From contig NZ_CP040602.1 of NCBI RefSeq assembly GCF_005885815.1, forward strand, positions 1,627,630 to 1,691,629: DNA of 64,000 bases, read 5' to 3'. Both the position numbers and the translations under genes were made by a program. Origin of the DNA: Thiomicrorhabdus sediminis. GTDB lineage: Bacteria; Pseudomonadota; Gammaproteobacteria; Thiomicrospirales; Thiomicrospiraceae. The notes under the pieces were generated by a model. The model was not told where the DNA came from, ran no database searches, and worked only from the letters and a program-made list of their open reading frames with translations. Below, in pieces: positions 34,518 through 50,438 of the stretch (position 1 is its first letter; every line of letters starts with the position of its first letter).

Positions 34518-35054
34518 TTAATAGCTAAATTCAGCGCGACGGTTTTTAGACCATGCCTCTTCATTATGACCATCAGCTACAGGACTGTCTTCACCGAAGC
34601 TGATCACTTCGATACGGCTTGGGCTGACACCCTCAGCAATCAAAGCATTTTTAACCGCATTCGCACGACGCTCACCTAAGGCAAGGTTGTACTCACGTGT
34701 ACCACGCTCATCACAGTGACCTTTGATGGTGACTTTTGCAGACGTCTCAAGAGCCATGAAATCCGCATTGGCTTTAATGATGTCATAGAACTCAGAACGA
34801 ATCTCTGAACGGTCAAAGTCGAAATAAACCACTTTACCGGCAATTTTCGCTTTTAACTCAGCTTTCTTAGCCGCCAATTCTTCAGCAGCTTTCGCTTCAG
34901 CTGCTGCTTTAGCCGCTTCGATATCCGCATCCACTTGCTCAGTCGCTTGTGCTTTATTATCCACTTCATCAGTTTTTGGCGTTGAACTACAACCAACTAG
35001 AGCAAAACCTAGAAAGCCAACTAGAAAAAGTTGTGAAAGACTTTTTACAGACAT
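34518..35054 (-). CDS. pal: Peptidoglycan-associated lipoprotein Pal
   Basis: This 178-residue protein has a lipobox (ALVGC), an Ala/Glu-rich helical spacer (residues 40-72), and an OmpA-like domain (VVYFDFDRSEIRSEF, TIKGHCDERGTREYNLALGERRANAV) that binds peptidoglycan. Pal connects the outer membrane to the wall and normally sits next to tolB; here no tol gene is adjacent. A related OmpA-type lipoprotein is possible, but the GHCDERGT pattern is Pal-like. GAGGAATC precedes the ATG. Confidence 0.88.
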   Translation of the reverse strand: MSVKSLSQLFLVGFLGFALVGCSSTPKTDEVDNKAQATEQVDADIEAAKAAAEAKAAEELAAKKAELKAKIAGKVVYFDFDRSEIRSEFYDIIKANADFMALETSAKVTIKGHCDERGTREYNLALGERRANAVKNALIAEGVSPSRIEVISFGEDSPVADGHNEEAWSKNRRAEFSY

Positions 35055-35381
35055 TTTGATTCCTCACTTAAAATTAAAAATTACCAATCATTAAAAACTA
35101 ATATAACCTATTCTACAGCAGAAATCTAAGGGGTTTGGGCGTTTTATTTGAAAAAGTATGACGGAACATTAAAGGCAAAAGTAACTACCAATAGAGGGCA
35201 CGAGAAAATGCAATTCTGCAACAAAAAAACCCGACTAGAGTCGGGTAAGCGGGCTACATTATGAAAAACGCAATCTAAACAACGTTTCCACACTTTTATT
35301 AGACCATAGCCCTGCTTTTAGAAAGTTGATTGAAATCAACAAATAGATTTACCCTTACAAATTAGAGGGTTTTTGATTATC
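35055..35381. other. Intergenic region between fnr and pal
   Basis: This 327 bp stretch holds the terminator behind fnr and the AT-rich upstream region of pal, which has a possible TAGAAT -10 element about 65 bp before pal. No gene is visible. Confidence 0.6.
35223..35246 (-). terminator. Terminator behind fnr
   Basis: On the minus strand ACCCGAC, a 4-base loop and GTCGGGT are followed by a T run of seven. It lies about 135 bp beyond the fnr stop. Confidence 0.75.
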
Positions 35382-36125
35382 TTATGCGAACTCCTGACAA
35401 ACTTCCGCTTCTGAAAAGCCTGCCAGCTGCTTTAATTTAGCCTCATCAAAAATCATCACCTGTTTCTTTTTCCAGCTGACGATATTATCGGCATTTAATT
35501 TGGATAAAATACGTGACACGGTCTCCGGGGTTAACCCCAAATAGACCGCGACATCTCTATGCAGGATATTAAGACGAAATTCCTCATAAAAGTAACCACG
35601 CTGTTTGAAACGGTCAGCCATATGCCAAATGAAGTGTGCGACACGCTGATCGGCATTGCGCTTAATCAATAGCTCAGAATGCAAACGATTAAACTGCAGC
35701 TTCTTACTCATGACCGCGATGATTTGCTGATTAAGGCTCGGGATCTGTTGCGATAAATCACTTAATTTGTCATAGGGCAGATTACACACCGAAGTACTGT
35801 CCAATGCCTGCATATTGAACTGATAACTTTCATCCAATAAACCATCAAAACCCACCACATCACCGGGTAGATAAAAACCGTGGATAATTTCTTCACCACT
35901 GTCGGAATAGGCATACATTTTCAGAACACCTGAACGTACCGCAAATATAGAAGTGAATTTTTCGCCAGCATGATAGAGGTGCTGGCCTTTTTTTATTGGC
36001 GATTTTCTTTCGACAATATTATCTAACAGATCAATGTCCGTTTTCATTAAACCCGTCGGAAAACAGACTTTTTGCAAACCGCAACTTAAGCAACTGGCAT
36101 TGAAGGTAGATTTATGTGTTGTCAT
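35382..36125 (-). CDS. fnr: FNR-type oxygen-sensing transcription regulator
   Basis: This 247-residue Crp/Fnr-family protein keeps the [4Fe-4S] ligands: Cys12, Cys15 and Cys21 (CLSCGLQKVC, spacing as in E. coli FNR) and Cys114. The DNA-reading helix has the E-SR pattern (TPETVSRILSKL) of FNR proteins. It should switch genes when oxygen disappears. A 13-of-14 match to the FNR box (36202-36215) lies about 80 bp upstream, suggesting self-control. Transcription is opposite to the kinase-Rieske gene across 556 bp. Confidence 0.9.
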   Translation of the reverse strand: MTTHKSTFNASCLSCGLQKVCFPTGLMKTDIDLLDNIVERKSPIKKGQHLYHAGEKFTSIFAVRSGVLKMYAYSDSGEEIIHGFYLPGDVVGFDGLLDESYQFNMQALDSTSVCNLPYDKLSDLSQQIPSLNQQIIAVMSKKLQFNRLHSELLIKRNADQRVAHFIWHMADRFKQRGYFYEEFRLNILHRDVAVYLGLTPETVSRILSKLNADNIVSWKKKQVMIFDEAKLKQLAGFSEAEVCQEFA

Positions 36126-36201
36126 AGTGAGCCAAAAAAAGATGATTTTATTATTAATGTTTTCGATTGTATCGTGTTATTTTTTTTTGTCATCCATTGC
36201 G

Positions 36202-36215
36202 ATGATTTTTATCAA
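36202..36215. promoter_or_regulatory. FNR-box candidate upstream of fnr
   Basis: On the minus strand the site is TTGATAAAAATCAT, matching TTGAT-N4-ATCAA at nine of ten fixed positions. It lies about 80 bp upstream of the fnr start. Confidence 0.6.
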
Positions 36216-36373
36216 AAAAAAAACCATTGGTATGATCAAAACAGCCTCTTTTACTGATTGGTAAAAAAACTTACCAACCCTCCATCTTCCTTAGTGCTTA
36301 TTTTTTAAGCAATCTAACAATTTGCACCGGTTTTAAAGAACTTAAGCCACTTTTAATATTTTTTTACACAAAG

Positions 36374-36382
36374 TTATCCACA
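36374..36382 (+). promoter_or_regulatory. DnaA box with inverted near-match
   Basis: TTATCCACA is a perfect DnaA box, and TGTGGAAAA a few bases further is the inverted site with one mismatch. There are no other boxes near, so DnaA-linked control of a neighbour is more likely than an origin. Confidence 0.4.
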
Positions 36383-36681
36383 GCTTTTGTGGAAAAGAAA
36401 TCGGTTACCTCAAGTTCAAATATTACCCTCATAAGTAATACATATATACCTTATATTTCATAAATTTAAACCATAGTGTTAATTTTTAATTTAAATATAA
36501 AAAATTAAGTTATCGAATAGGATTGTCAAGATTTTTTTATTTTTATTCACTTAAAATCGCTGCGGACAAGAGCCAACAGGTTTTTACCAACTATGTTAAA
36601 ATTACAGCCTTTGATTATATTAATTTTTTAAATATATCATCATCATAAACACTAATTACCCTCATTTTTTTGGAGCCCTAA

Positions 36682-37872
36682 ATGGCAAAAATTTTAGGTA
36701 TCGGTAACGCCGTTCTGGACACAATCCTAACCGTTGAGCATCATCCTGAAGCCAATGAAGAGATGCGCGCATTAGATAAACATACCGCGACAGGCGGAAA
36801 TGTAAATAATTCACTGTATGTACTCAATCAACTTGGTCATGAAACTTCGATCTGCACAACTTTCGCTGCCGACGCTGAAGCCAAGCAATTACAGACAGAT
36901 TTACATAAACGCGGCATTTCCACTGAGCATACTCAAACCTTTATCAAAGGTCGCACACCAAGCTCCTATATCACGCTCAACGTTCAAAATGGCGACCGGA
37001 CTATCGTTCACTATCGAGACCTACCGGAAGTCAGTTTTGATTTTTTTGCCAAAATCGAAATCGAAGACTATGACTGGTTGCATTTTGAGGGTAGAAATTT
37101 GACTCATCTACCGGGCATGCTCAATATCAGTAAAACGTTTTTAACCCATCAACCGATCTCACTGGAAGTAGAAAAACCGCGTGATGGCATTGAAGCGCTG
37201 TTTGCTCAGGCTAACCTTATTATTTTCTCTCACCACTACGCCAAAGCGAAAGGCTTTGATAATGGCGCCGACTTATTGGCCAGTCTAAACCTCGCACAAA
37301 CCAATCTGGTCTGTACTTGGGGAGAGCAAGGAGTCTGGTATCAACAGGCTGGTGGTAGTACAGAACACCTTGCTGCTGTGAAAGTGAGTACAGTGATAGA
37401 TACGCTTGGCGCCGGTGACACCTTTAACGCGGGGCTTATCCATGCATTACTGGAAAAACAACCTCTTGCTGATGCGGTGCGCTATGCCAATGAACTGGCG
37501 GCAAAGAAAATTCAACAACCGGGATTGGATAACCTGCTTGCCGAAAACCAAAACAAACCACTAATCAATATTAAACAACTTACCAATACTCGCACCACGG
37601 TTATCGATGATCAAAACGGTCGCTCACTGGTATTGATCAAATATGAAGAAGGGGTACGCTGCTATATCAATAACTGTCCGCATCAAGATGTGCCGCTAAA
37701 CGAAGCCTATAAAATAGATGTGAACCCATTTGAAAAAACACTGAAATGTTCGGTACATGATGCCTTTTTCAACATTGATGACGGCGTTTGCATCGATGGT
37801 CCGTGTTGGGATGAAGCACTGCAAAGCGTTGCGGTGAAAATTGATGAGCAAGGTGATATCTACCTAGCCTAG
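36682..37872 (+). CDS. PfkB-family sugar kinase fused to a Rieske [2Fe-2S] domain
   Basis: This 396-residue protein has two parts. Residues 1-290 are a PfkB/ribokinase-family kinase, nearest in appearance to ketohexokinases, with GGNVNNS at 38-44 and the catalytic GAGDTFNAG at 243-251 (Asp246). Residues 300-396 form a Rieske domain of the NirD/ferredoxin type, with CPH (Cys332, His334) and CSVH (Cys356, His359), the four cluster ligands. The frame is continuous. A GGAG ribosome site lies before ATG 36682. The sugar substrate and the use of the redox centre are unknown. It faces an FNR gene across the intergenic region. Confidence 0.85.
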   Translation: MAKILGIGNAVLDTILTVEHHPEANEEMRALDKHTATGGNVNNSLYVLNQLGHETSICTTFAADAEAKQLQTDLHKRGISTEHTQTFIKGRTPSSYITLNVQNGDRTIVHYRDLPEVSFDFFAKIEIEDYDWLHFEGRNLTHLPGMLNISKTFLTHQPISLEVEKPRDGIEALFAQANLIIFSHHYAKAKGFDNGADLLASLNLAQTNLVCTWGEQGVWYQQAGGSTEHLAAVKVSTVIDTLGAGDTFNAGLIHALLEKQPLADAVRYANELAAKKIQQPGLDNLLAENQNKPLINIKQLTNTRTTVIDDQNGRSLVLIKYEEGVRCYINNCPHQDVPLNEAYKIDVNPFEKTLKCSVHDAFFNIDDGVCIDGPCWDEALQSVAVKIDEQGDIYLA

Positions 37873-45882: not shown

Positions 45883-46854
45883 ATGAAAAGATTAGATCAA
45901 GTACTAGCTAACGATGGCGTTGGCGCTGAGTTAGAACTAGTAATCAAAGACGTAATGGTCGCTTGTAAAGATATCGCTTACAAGTTGGCTCAAGGTGAAC
46001 TAGCTGGTATCTTAGGTGCAACTGAAGATGAAAACGTTCAGGGTGAAACACAGAAGAAACTAGATGTTATCTCTAACGACCTTCTTAAAGACATCCTAAT
46101 CGCTAACCCATACGTTCGTGGTATCGGTTCTGAAGAAGAAGATTACACTGTTGCCGGTAATGCCGGTGGTAAGTACCTAGTTACTTTCGATCCATTAGAC
46201 GGTTCTTCGAACATCGATGTTAACCTTTCAGTTGGTACTATCTTCTCTGTACTTGAAGCTCAAGACGACCAGTCTGGCGACAACCAGGAAGTTTTCCTGC
46301 AAAACGGTCGCAAGCAAGTAGCAGCCGGTTACGTTCTTTACGGACCATCAGCACTTCTAGTTATGACAACTGGTAACGGTGTTAACTTCTTTACTCTAGA
46401 CCGTAACATCGGTGAATTCGTATTGACCAAGTCAAATATCCAGATTCCTGAAGATACAGCTGAATTCGCAATCAACATGTCTAACCAGCGTTTCTGGGAA
46501 CCAGAAATGAAGCAGTACATCGATGACTGTCTAGCTGGTGAAGAAGGTCCTCTAGGTAAGCGTTACAACATGCGCTGGGTTGCTTCAATGGTTGCGGAAG
46601 TTCACCGTATCCTAGTTCGTGGCGGTATTTTCATGTACCCATACGACAGCCGCGACCCATCAAAAGCTGGTAAACTTCGTCTAATGTACGAAGGTAACCC
46701 TATGTCTATGATCGTTGAACAAGCCGGCGGCGCTTCTTCAACTGGTCGCATCGACATTATGGATGTTGAGCCAAAAGGTATCCACGATCGTGTACCGGTT
46801 GTTCTTGGCTCTAAGAACGAAGTCGCTAAAGTAGTGGCTTACCACTCTAAATAA
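45883..46854 (+). CDS. fbp: Fructose-1,6-bisphosphatase class I
   Basis: This 323-residue enzyme has the active-site motif DPLDGSSNIDVN and typical FBPase blocks (GKLRLMYEGNPMSMIVEQAGG). It hydrolyses fructose-1,6-bisphosphate in gluconeogenesis and, in autotrophs, in the Calvin cycle. Codon choice, with many GGT, CTA/CTT and few rare codons, is more biased than in neighbours and suggests high expression. Ppa follows on the same strand. Confidence 0.96.
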   Translation: MKRLDQVLANDGVGAELELVIKDVMVACKDIAYKLAQGELAGILGATEDENVQGETQKKLDVISNDLLKDILIANPYVRGIGSEEEDYTVAGNAGGKYLVTFDPLDGSSNIDVNLSVGTIFSVLEAQDDQSGDNQEVFLQNGRKQVAAGYVLYGPSALLVMTTGNGVNFFTLDRNIGEFVLTKSNIQIPEDTAEFAINMSNQRFWEPEMKQYIDDCLAGEEGPLGKRYNMRWVASMVAEVHRILVRGGIFMYPYDSRDPSKAGKLRLMYEGNPMSMIVEQAGGASSTGRIDIMDVEPKGIHDRVPVVLGSKNEVAKVVAYHSK

Positions 46855-47650: not shown

Positions 47651-50438
47651 ATGGCAGCCGAAATTCGTGATAAGCAATTAAGAGCACGCGTCAAACTTCT
47701 GGGAAATATTCTAGGGAAAGTCATCACCAATCAAGTCGGTGAAGACATTTTCAATGCGGTTGAGAAACTGCGTACCGGTTATATCAAACTACAGAAACAA
47801 GACGACCCTGAATTGCGTCAGGAACTGAAACAGTTTATCGAGTCACGTAAACCTGATGAACTGACCATGATTATTCGCGCTTTCAACCTTTATTTCAGCC
47901 TGGTAAACCTTGCCGAAGAGGAAAACCAGTACCATGAAAGACAAGGTCAGTTGAAATCGGACGGCCCTTTATGGACAGGTTCGGTGCTAAACACCATTGG
48001 TGAATTCAAAGAGCAAGGCATGAGTGCCGAGCAGGTGCAAACATTACTGGATAAACTGAACTATATTCCGGTATTCACCGCTCACCCTACCGAATCAAAA
48101 CGCCGTTCGGTGATGGACAATCTACGCCGTATTTTCTTGGATATCGGTACGCTTAACGAAGCCGACACCTACAATAACGAATACGCTAAAGAAGCGCTCT
48201 ATCAACAGCTTGAATCACAGATTCAAGTGCTTTGGCAAACCGACGAAGTGCGTCGCGTTAAACCAACCGTTGAAGATGAAATTCGTAACGGCATCTACTT
48301 CTTCCGCAAATCTTTATTTGATGCGGTACCGACCGTTTATCGCTATATGGAACGCGCTTTAGCCAAGCACTACCCAGATGACAACATCACACCAAACTTT
48401 TTTGACCTTCGGTTCCTGGATTGGTGGTGACCGTGACGGTAACCCGTTTGTCACACACGATACAACGGTAGGCGCTCTTTTATTGCAAAGCCGCGCGGTG
48501 ATTTACGAATATCAGAAACGTGTTTTTGACCTTAGCTCAAAACTGACCCATTCACGCTTTTTGTGCAATATCTCGCAAGAGGTGATCAACCGCTCAACGA
48601 TTGTCGATGCCGACCTTGTGCAGTTTGTCTTCAAAAAACGTCCAGAGCGTTTTAAAAACGAACCATACCGTCGCTTCCTGTATTTGATGGAAGGACGCCT
48701 TAAAAAGAATTTGGAATATATCGAAAACTGGCTTGAAGGAAATAAAACCGAGAAGAGCCCGTTTGCATACCAGTGTGAAAATGAACTGCTTGAAGACCTT
48801 GAGTTAATCTATGACTCACTTTGCGCGCACGGCGATAAAAATGTTGCCAATGCCGAACTGCAAGATGTCATCCGTTTGGTGAAAACTTTCGGTTTCTACC
48901 TAATGCGTCTGGATATTCGTCAAGAATCAAATGTCCATAGTGATGCGGTCGCCGATATGCTGAGTCACCTTGGTATTGACTATAATGCGCTATCTGAAAA
49001 AGAGCGTGTTGAAGTGCTGGCTGAACATGTGTCGGCAGCAACCATCATCGATACTCAACACCTTGATTTAGACGAGATGACGGTAGAAGTACTGGAAGTC
49101 TTCAATGTTATCCGTGAAATGCGTAAAGAAATCAGTCCAAAAGCCTTCAACAACTACGTTGTTTCCATGACTCATGAAGCCAGTCATGCGATGGAAGTTC
49201 TGTTCCTAGCGCATCAAGCGGGTCTTGCCGGCTACAATGCAGGGGAACCTTATTGCGATATCAATATTTCACCGCTATTCGAAACCATTGAAGATTTGGC
49301 ACACATCGTTCCGGTTACCGAAGCCCTGTTCGCCAACCCGACCTATAAAGCCTTACTGGAAGCTTCAGGCAACCAGCAAGAGATTATGCTCGGTTATTCG
49401 GACTCGGCTAAGGACGGCGGTAACCTGTCATCGGCCTGGAGTCTTTACCAGGCACAAAAAGAGATCATGAAACTGGCCGACTCTTACGGCGTCGATTGTC
49501 GTTTGTTCCACGGTCGTGGTGGTACGGTTGGCCGTGGTGGCGGTCCAACACACCATGCTATCCTATCGCAGCCAACAGGCTCGGTTCGTGGTTCAATCAA
49601 ATTTACCGAACAAGGTGAAGTACTGTCTTATAAATATAGCAACTCGGAAACGGCTAATTATGAGCTGTCTCTAGGAGTTACCGGTTTAATGAAGGCGAGT
49701 ACGGGTCTGGTTCAAAGCGTGACCAAGGATAAACCGGAATATCTGGAAACCATGAAGCAACTGGCAAAAGACGGTGAGTTCAACTTCCGTGAATTGACCG
49801 ATAACACCGAAGGTTTCTTTAACTTCTTCTACGAAGCGACGCCGGTAACCGAGATTGGCTTATTGAATATCGGTTCTCGTCCGTCACACCGTAAAAAAGG
49901 CAATCTATCGAAATCTTCAATTCGTGCGATTCCGTGGATTTTCGGTTGGGCGCAAGCCCGTTTGACCTTCCCTGCCTGGCAAGGTACCGGTTATGCGCTG
50001 GATAAATGGATTCAAGAGCACGGTGATGACAGACTTCAGGAAATGCATGAAAACTGGCCATTCTTCCGCGCGATGTTGAGCAATATCCAGATGGCGCTAT
50101 TCAAAACCGATCTGTCGATTGGTCAAGAATACAGCAAACTCGGAAGTGATCAGCAGGTAGCTCAGACAGTTTATCAATTGATTGCCGACGAGCATACCCG
50201 CTCTGTACAGCGAATTCTGGAAATTACCGGTAACAGCTATCTGATGGAAGAAACACCAGCAATCGCATTATCGCTGAAACGCCGCAACCCTTATTTGGTA
50301 CCGCTGAATAATATTCAGATTGTATTGCTGGAACGCTACAAAAACGAAAGCATTCCTGAACAGGAACGCGATATCTGGCTAACCCCGCTGCTAAACAGCA
50401 TCAATGCGATTGCTGCGGGAATGCGCAATACAGGTTAA
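47651..50438 (+). CDS. ppc: Phosphoenolpyruvate carboxylase with a one-base frameshift
   Basis: PEP carboxylase fixes bicarbonate onto PEP to form oxaloacetate. The first frame (47651 to about 48400) holds the start and IPVFTAHPTESKRR with the essential His. The second frame (to 50438) holds GSWIGGDRDGNPFVT, GYSDSAKDGG and FHGRGGTVGRGGGP. The frames meet at a run of six T (48398-48403); removing one T restores the family sequence NFLTFGSW and an intact protein of about 928 residues. A sequencing error in the homopolymer is likely; a real mutation or slippage is not excluded. Everything else in the gene looks functional. Confidence 0.9.

Follow-up and report, generated by a model that had tools for sequence, protein, structure and literature searches.

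Ketohexokinases phosphorylate ketoses at C1, and we take Asp15, Asn42, Asn45, Arg108, Lys174 and Asp258 (human ketohexokinase numbering) to be their catalytic and substrate residues and Asp27 to be a sugar contact contributed by the partner subunit. In plants, the enzymes of the Calvin cycle are under redox control through the ferredoxin/thioredoxin system. In plastids, the PfkB-type protein FLN1 pairs with the redox protein thioredoxin z (PMC4036507), which sets a precedent. The redox activity of FLN1/thioredoxin z is reported there to be dispensable for autotrophic growth, which cautions against assuming that the redox partner of a PfkB protein acts as a switch. An earlier note on the locus analysed here knew of no characterised enzyme that combines a PfkB kinase with a Rieske domain, and the literature agrees with it as far as titles and the openings of abstracts can tell. 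Searches for Rieske proteins together with PfkB, ketohexokinase, sugar kinase or ribokinase returned no paper on this layout, nor did searches on ketohexokinases of bacteria or on the Calvin cycle combined with ketohexokinase or fructokinase.

We analysed a stretch of 64,000 nucleotides from Thiomicrorhabdus sediminis (contig NZ_CP040602.1, positions 1,627,630 to 1,691,629), referred to as the window. It carries an open reading frame that runs as a single frame from an ATG start, with zero internal stops and a GGAG six bases upstream of the ATG (Table 1). The PfkB domain scored 117.6 bits against a gathering cut-off of 25.8, which together with the GAGD motif places the protein in the PfkB carbohydrate kinase family, and the Rieske domain scored 36.9 bits against a cut-off of 20.3. 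The fusion was matched in all 62 genomes of the order, 60 of them with one unbroken full-length frame and two (G021 and G034) with a broken one; identity to the named relatives, from Thiomicrorhabdus and Thiomicrospira, is 60-75%. With both domains above their cut-offs and the unbroken frame shared by 60/62 genomes of the order, the earlier description of a kinase and a Rieske domain joined in one frame is upheld, and a frameshift or an assembly join is ruled out as the origin of the fusion. The kinase-Rieske fusion is a new architecture of known parts. The packing of the two domains is unreadable from a structure prediction of the whole protein (nine sequences) because its confidence was low (mean pLDDT 64, residues 1-129 mostly below 50).

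Table 1. Features of the kinase-Rieske locus, in positions of the window.
Feature	Position	Strand	Evidence
fnr, divergent neighbour of the kinase gene	35382..36125	-	NCBIfam Fnr subfamily, 4.4e-70; conserved synteny in the order
Complete kinase-Rieske fusion gene (396 aa; ketohexokinase-like kinase plus Rieske domain)	36682..37872	+	intact ORF; relatives in 62/62 genomes of the order
PfkB (ketohexokinase-like) kinase domain, residues 1-284	36682..37533	+	Pfam PF00294, 9e-34
Asn25, at the place of ketohexokinase Asp27	36754..36756	+	Asp in 82/88 and Asn in 6/88 kinases, the window's among the six
Arg112, where human ketohexokinase has Thr115	37015..37017	+	invariant in 88/88 kinases
GAGD catalytic motif, residues 243-246, catalytic Asp246	37408..37419	+	88-kinase alignment
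Rieske [2Fe-2S] domain, residues 309-378	37606..37815	+	Pfam PF00355, 3.4e-9
Rieske box 1, C332-P-H334, predicted cluster ligands	37675..37683	+	39/39 aligned Rieske domains (pattern-selected), 9/9 close relatives
Rieske box 2, C356-S-V-H359, predicted cluster ligands	37747..37758	+	39/39 aligned Rieske domains (pattern-selected), 9/9 close relatives
C370-x-x-G-P-C375 (G-x-C370-x-x-G-P-C375), two more conserved cysteines past the cluster boxes	37789..37806	+	39/39 rows (C370 and P part of the selection pattern)
Presumed fructose-1,6-bisphosphatase gene, ~8 kb downstream of the fusion	45883-46854	+	also in the fetched flank of four other loci of the order

The top PDB sequence matches to the kinase part were ketohexokinases (5.8e-45), with the vertebrate enzyme the closest among solved structures, and the best fold match of the predicted model (mean pLDDT 64) was also a ketohexokinase, 3qa2_A, with Z 21.6 and an rmsd of 4.2 over 245 residues. 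Across an alignment of 88 kinases, the A, G and D of the GAGD motif are invariant (88/88) and its first position is occupied by G (75 kinases) or A (13). The counterparts of Asp15, Asn42, Arg108, Lys174, Gly257 and Asp258 are kept in all 88 kinases and that of Asn45 in 87; the window's protein has Asp15, Asn42, Asn45, Arg108, Lys174 and Asp258. Because Asn25 stands at the Asp27 position, we file the protein as ketohexokinase-like and not as a ketohexokinase. These counts, and those of the 81 kinase loci below, exclude an Acinetobacter baumannii locus (L040) whose kinase belongs to another family.

Modelled alone (mean pLDDT 80), the Rieske domain adopts the Rieske fold, matching 2qpz with Z 13.5 and an rmsd of 1.7 over 93 residues. 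Its nearest relatives in both sequence (1.6e-6) and fold are the oxygenase-type Rieske ferredoxins. The 39 aligned Rieske rows were chosen by the C-x-H / C-x-x-H pattern, so that ligand invariance among them is built in, and the nine close relatives were chosen otherwise. Of the two further cysteines, C370 belonged to the row selection pattern together with the P, and C375 did not, yet it is invariant in 39/39 rows. Judged by the conservation of catalytic residues and cluster ligands, both modules look functional.

Pairing of the two modules extends well beyond the window. In a class sample of 369 genomes, the kinase was found in 102 and a Rieske protein of this family in 141 (142 by the tool's tally); both occur in 59, and in 39 of those 59 they are side by side or fused. 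Adjacency or fusion links the two modules in many lineages; the earlier note had recognised neither the pair as separate genes nor the ketohexokinase type of the kinase and its association with RuBisCO. At 81 kinase loci, the 80 fetched stretches being a selection from order and class matches, the Rieske domain was fused or directly downstream on the same strand in 37 and upstream in 1. The 88-kinase tree holds 16 fused kinases, 26 with a Rieske gene directly downstream, 1 with it upstream and 45 with no neighbouring Rieske, a category set, here as at the 81 loci, by a strict motif pattern that may miss variants. Since these 45/88 kinases lack a neighbouring Rieske and 82/141 Rieske genomes have no kinase, neither module strictly needs the other. 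Rieske places without an adjacent kinase were sampled by fetching 60 of 107, of which 57 gave a gene call. The fused rows fall in three places of the kinase tree, which requires three changes, only one of them forced by well-supported branches; deep support in this tree is weak, and the Rieske tree rests on few columns and groups long branches together. We make no claim on the number of independent fusions because tree support is too weak to count events. Only 4/398 genomes matched in a phylum sample that included class genomes; three of them belong to the class, the window's genome being one, and the fourth, G670 (29% identity, 3e-21), lies outside it. How common the kinase is varies with the sampling (102/369 in the class sample vs 4/398 in the phylum sample), and within these samples the kinase family appears, by sequence, to be essentially gammaproteobacterial.

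The earlier note had also placed the facing fnr gene within a redox theme. The synteny itself is firm within the order: fnr is divergently upstream in 39/47 locus copies, four of the eight misses having less than 350 bases of upstream sequence, and rlmB converges downstream in 45/47 (some genomes are counted twice among the 47). Among fetched loci, fnr neighbours the kinase only within the order. The gap between fnr and the kinase gene (36126-36681) measures 556 bases in the window and 492-720 bases in 31 loci of the order, and an Rfam scan of the window, this gap included, gave zero matches. Scanning the 31 gaps with the FNR box consensus, we found none within promoter range of the kinase; 4/31 gaps contain a box with one mismatch or fewer, all of these at the fnr end and 473-570 bases away from the start of the kinase. 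These positions lend no support to FNR control of the kinase, and with fnr adjacency confined to the order among the fetched loci the redox theme is weak. The one perfect FNR box near the kinase gene, TTGATTGAAATCAA, stands at 35326-35339 on the far side of fnr, between fnr and a gene (34518-35054) that we take to encode a Pal/OmpA-like lipoprotein.

We compared the distribution of the kinase with that of the RuBisCO large subunit, called by PF00016 at 1e-30, a call that may take in RuBisCO-like proteins. RuBisCO was present in 176/369 class-sample genomes, with a marked excess among genomes that have the kinase (94/102) vs those without it (82/267; Fisher P = 1.4e-28). The excess persisted with one genome per family (41/44 with the kinase vs 35/114 without; P = 1.9e-13), where the odds ratio was 31 for the kinase and 3.6 for the Rieske family; this set was taken by visible numbering (G062 = f2 to G218 = f158), and family is the only, and a coarse, correction for kinship. 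Phosphoribulokinase was found in 77/80 kinase genomes tested (80 of the 102, including all eight RuBisCO-negative ones), which rules out the kinase as a general stand-in for that enzyme. In the eight kinase genomes in which RuBisCO is absent or was missed (G063, G094, G109, G220, G269, G344, G418 and G422), phosphoribulokinase was matched five times, strongly in G063, G094, G109 and G418 and more weakly in G344 (3e-58). Hexulose-phosphate synthase of the ribulose monophosphate (RuMP) pathway was above the cut-off in three of the eight, all of family f3 (G063, G220 and G422), in 0 of the 9 other genomes in the set that gave these three, and in 1/69 RuBisCO-negative genomes without the kinase (G308). 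As the three genomes share a family, and as the synthase also occurs in G308, where the kinase is missing, the link of the kinase to RuMP is suggestive only. RuBisCO, phosphoribulokinase and RuMP synthase were all looked for in G269 and none was found. Together, these results show a correlation of the kinase with carbon cycles that run through ribulose-5-phosphate, above all the Calvin cycle, and lineage or lifestyle may be its source.

Calvin-cycle genes also occur near some of the loci. Phosphoribulokinase lay inside the fetched flank in 6/81 kinase loci and in 6/60 Rieske-only loci, and fructose-bisphosphatase in 5/81 kinase loci, all in the order; these flanking genes may reflect inherited synteny and carry little weight. 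Two genes of the window's genome are split. What we take to be a phosphoenolpyruvate carboxylase-like gene at 47651-50438 (+) consists of two overlapping frames (47651-48430 and 48378-50438), either really so or through an assembly frameshift, and the genome's phosphoribulokinase gene is divided over two frames (L246 1005-1935; contig ~9504-10434). The two splits suggest indel errors in the assembly.

The reading that we put forward, tentatively, is that of a ketohexokinase-like ketose kinase beside the Calvin cycle, carrying a redox-sensing Rieske module that changes its activity or assembly. The kinase would phosphorylate a ketose arising beside ribulose-5-phosphate cycles (mainly Calvin-Benson-Bassham, possibly RuMP); candidate substrates are free fructose, xylulose, ribulose or sedoheptulose from phosphatase side reactions, and their phosphorylation would bring the carbon back into the cycle as a salvage step. 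The C-terminal Rieske [2Fe-2S] module would read the redox state of the cell and alter kinase activity or assembly, and in many relatives a separate gene directly downstream would supply that module. We infer the substrate, the salvage role, the assembly of the cluster and its redox coupling to kinase activity. Redox control of the kinase is plausible from sequence, and nothing in the sequence examined ties the cluster to kinase activity. Also counting against this reading are the Asn at the Asp27 position, the eight kinase genomes without a RuBisCO match, the 82 RuBisCO genomes that lack the kinase, the RuMP genome G308 and the occurrence of each module without the other.

The main rival explanation, on balance unlikely in our judgement, is that the Rieske domain acts simply as an electron carrier or as a sensor and has a redox partner of its own (a reductase, a large cyclic-nucleotide-binding protein or another acceptor), that gene proximity and co-expression led to the fusion, and that the kinase works independently of the cluster. 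The closeness of the domain to oxygenase-type Rieske ferredoxins argues for it, as does the occurrence of the Rieske family without the kinase noted above. The family also adjoins other kinases. In the Acinetobacter baumannii locus (L040 5821-7162), a Rieske gene of the same family directly follows an adenosine-kinase-like PfkB gene and overlaps its end, that kinase being 23% identical to the window's; in another locus (L206 5717-7300), a ROK-family sugar kinase is directly upstream of a lone Rieske gene, with a ROK gene more distant in L213 and L225. This recurrence of sugar or nucleoside kinases beside the Rieske gene across several lineages counts against the rival as well, since co-expression alone would not demand it.

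The choice of partner weighs further on this rival. Besides the fusion, the 62 genomes of the order hold no PF00355 place in an open frame longer than 251 aa, that is, no oxygenase-sized second Rieske protein. Exactly two Rieske places occur in 58/62 of them, one being the fusion and the other a frame of 195-251 aa whose length, by size alone, is like that of a cytochrome bc1 subunit. With the receiving oxygenase absent from the 62 genomes, a role as electron donor to a Rieske oxygenase is ruled out for the order, and the earlier suggestion of electron supply to a partner finds no support in its usual Rieske-oxygenase sense; supply to a partner of another kind may still apply. Among the 35 other genomes with adjacent or fused modules, G063, G422 and G395 have only two Rieske places and the remainder have 3 to 12, so that an oxygenase-donor role may apply in the latter. 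A reductase-type gene (NAD/FAD/2Fe-2S) within three genes of the Rieske gene, on the opposite strand, offers the rival a candidate partner in 3/57 Rieske-only loci (two of the three were Pfam-scanned), which is a rare neighbour.

A second candidate is a large protein of ~700-1900 aa that combines cyclic-nucleotide-binding and rhodanese-like domains and is repeatedly located upstream of the Rieske gene; it was found in 10/38 kinase loci with a Rieske, 2/43 without one and 12/60 Rieske-only loci. Given that this neighbour tracks the Rieske gene, the Rieske protein may have a job of its own, and the large protein is a possible partner for it. The signalling make-up of the large protein also fits, weakly, the sensory Rieske role of the reading that we favour. 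It stands directly upstream of a kinase-Rieske pair or a lone Rieske gene in several families (L088, L070, L107, L110, L119, L120, L123, L138, L179, L181, L184, L234 and others); one of the three large copies scanned, L088 8947-14103 (-), carries a sulfatase-modifying-factor domain in addition.

Kinase loci without a Rieske gene have a distinct neighbour. A small CxxC protein gene with no Pfam match occurs in 19/43 of these loci, in 0/38 kinase loci with a Rieske and in 0/60 Rieske-only loci; the protein is perhaps an alternative partner of the kinase, or its distribution a lineage effect. It lies directly upstream of the kinase in L087 (7678-7986), L084, L093, L096, L099, L101, L105, L106 and others. 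Two more families recur beside Rieske-bearing loci: a SnoaL-like protein (8/38 kinase loci with a Rieske, 3/43 without, 13/60 Rieske-only) and a sodium bile acid symporter family protein (7/38, 2/43 and 4/60, respectively). The symporter gene follows the Rieske or kinase gene downstream, one or two genes away, in L201 (7359-8270), L075, L094, L095, L117, L125, L127, L148, L199, L217 and L229. Most names of the neighbour clusters are our own assignments, and the transporters among them we take to be of the ABC type and the sodium bile acid symporter family. None of the recurring neighbours names the substrate of the kinase, and lineage can explain part of the pattern. The Rieske protein has a context of its own that includes a signalling protein, and the kinase can do without the Rieske.

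Less likely than the independent Rieske, and improbable in our estimation, is a kinase for phosphorylated Calvin-cycle ketoses such as xylulose-5-phosphate, sedoheptulose-7-phosphate or fructose-6-phosphate, which would make a C1 bisphosphate, hold the distal phosphate with Arg112 and be switched by the Rieske module. C1 phosphorylation as the chemistry of ketohexokinase, the RuBisCO link and the invariance of Arg112 vs the Thr of the human enzyme are all consistent with such an activity. The presence of phosphoribulokinase in nearly all kinase genomes tested counts against a kinase that generally replaces that step.

Thiomicrospira and Thiomicrorhabdus are obligate or near-obligate autotrophs. 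The finding of the kinase in every genome of an order with such named members makes it quite doubtful that the protein is simply a fructokinase serving sugars that are taken up or stored (fructose, breakdown of sucrose), its Rieske tail being incidental, as a ketohexokinase-like active site would otherwise allow. In addition, none of the neighbour clusters found near at least 4 kinase loci was recognisable to us as a gene for sugar uptake or sucrose. Finally, a catalytically dead PfkB scaffold for a redox partner, for which FLN1 with thioredoxin z provides the precedent (PMC4036507), is very improbable, as a dead enzyme would not retain the catalytic residues kept across the 88 kinases.

If the favoured reading of a redox-sensing ketose kinase is correct, an apparently uncharacterised enzyme that is nearly always found with RuBisCO in the sampled Gammaproteobacteria points to a step that has been missing next to the Calvin cycle, be it salvage, repair or control, and the Rieske module would couple a predicted iron-sulphur cluster to a small-molecule kinase. 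Redox gating, if true, would link the electron supply of chemolithoautotrophs directly, at the molecular level, to their carbon flow. As a speculation to which we give little credence, the Rieske module of these organisms might read electron supply and gate a C1-ketose kinase that makes or clears a sugar phosphate active on RuBisCO, for example a bisphosphate substrate or inhibitor. Such a switch would be a bacterial counterpart of thioredoxin control in plants, and in other Gammaproteobacteria the same switch would be a detachable subunit.

Set against the described systems, the window's protein resembles ketohexokinase (KHK; 3b3l, 3nbv) in giving it as the best sequence and fold match over residues 1-286 and in sharing its catalytic residues, and differs from it in having Asn for Asp27, Arg112 for Thr115 and a C-terminal Rieske domain, in being bacterial and in its statistical link to RuBisCO. 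With the Rieske ferredoxins of carbazole dioxygenase (3gce), naphthalene dioxygenase (2qpz) and toluene-4-monooxygenase (protein C, 1vm9) the C-terminal domain has in common the fold and both cluster boxes; unlike those of the oxygenases, it is fused to a kinase, carries the extra conserved C-x-x-G-P-C and occurs in an order without a Rieske oxygenase. Plastid FLN1 with thioredoxin z (PMC4036507) is alike as a pairing, within an autotroph, of a PfkB-type and a redox protein. The plastid pair differs in consisting of two separate proteins, in using a thioredoxin and no Rieske, and in that FLN1 serves as a structural component of the plastid RNA polymerase. As in the redox control of the Calvin cycle of plants, the proposed module would couple Calvin-cycle carbon flow to redox state, through a built-in iron-sulphur domain here and through disulphide exchange in the ferredoxin/thioredoxin system.
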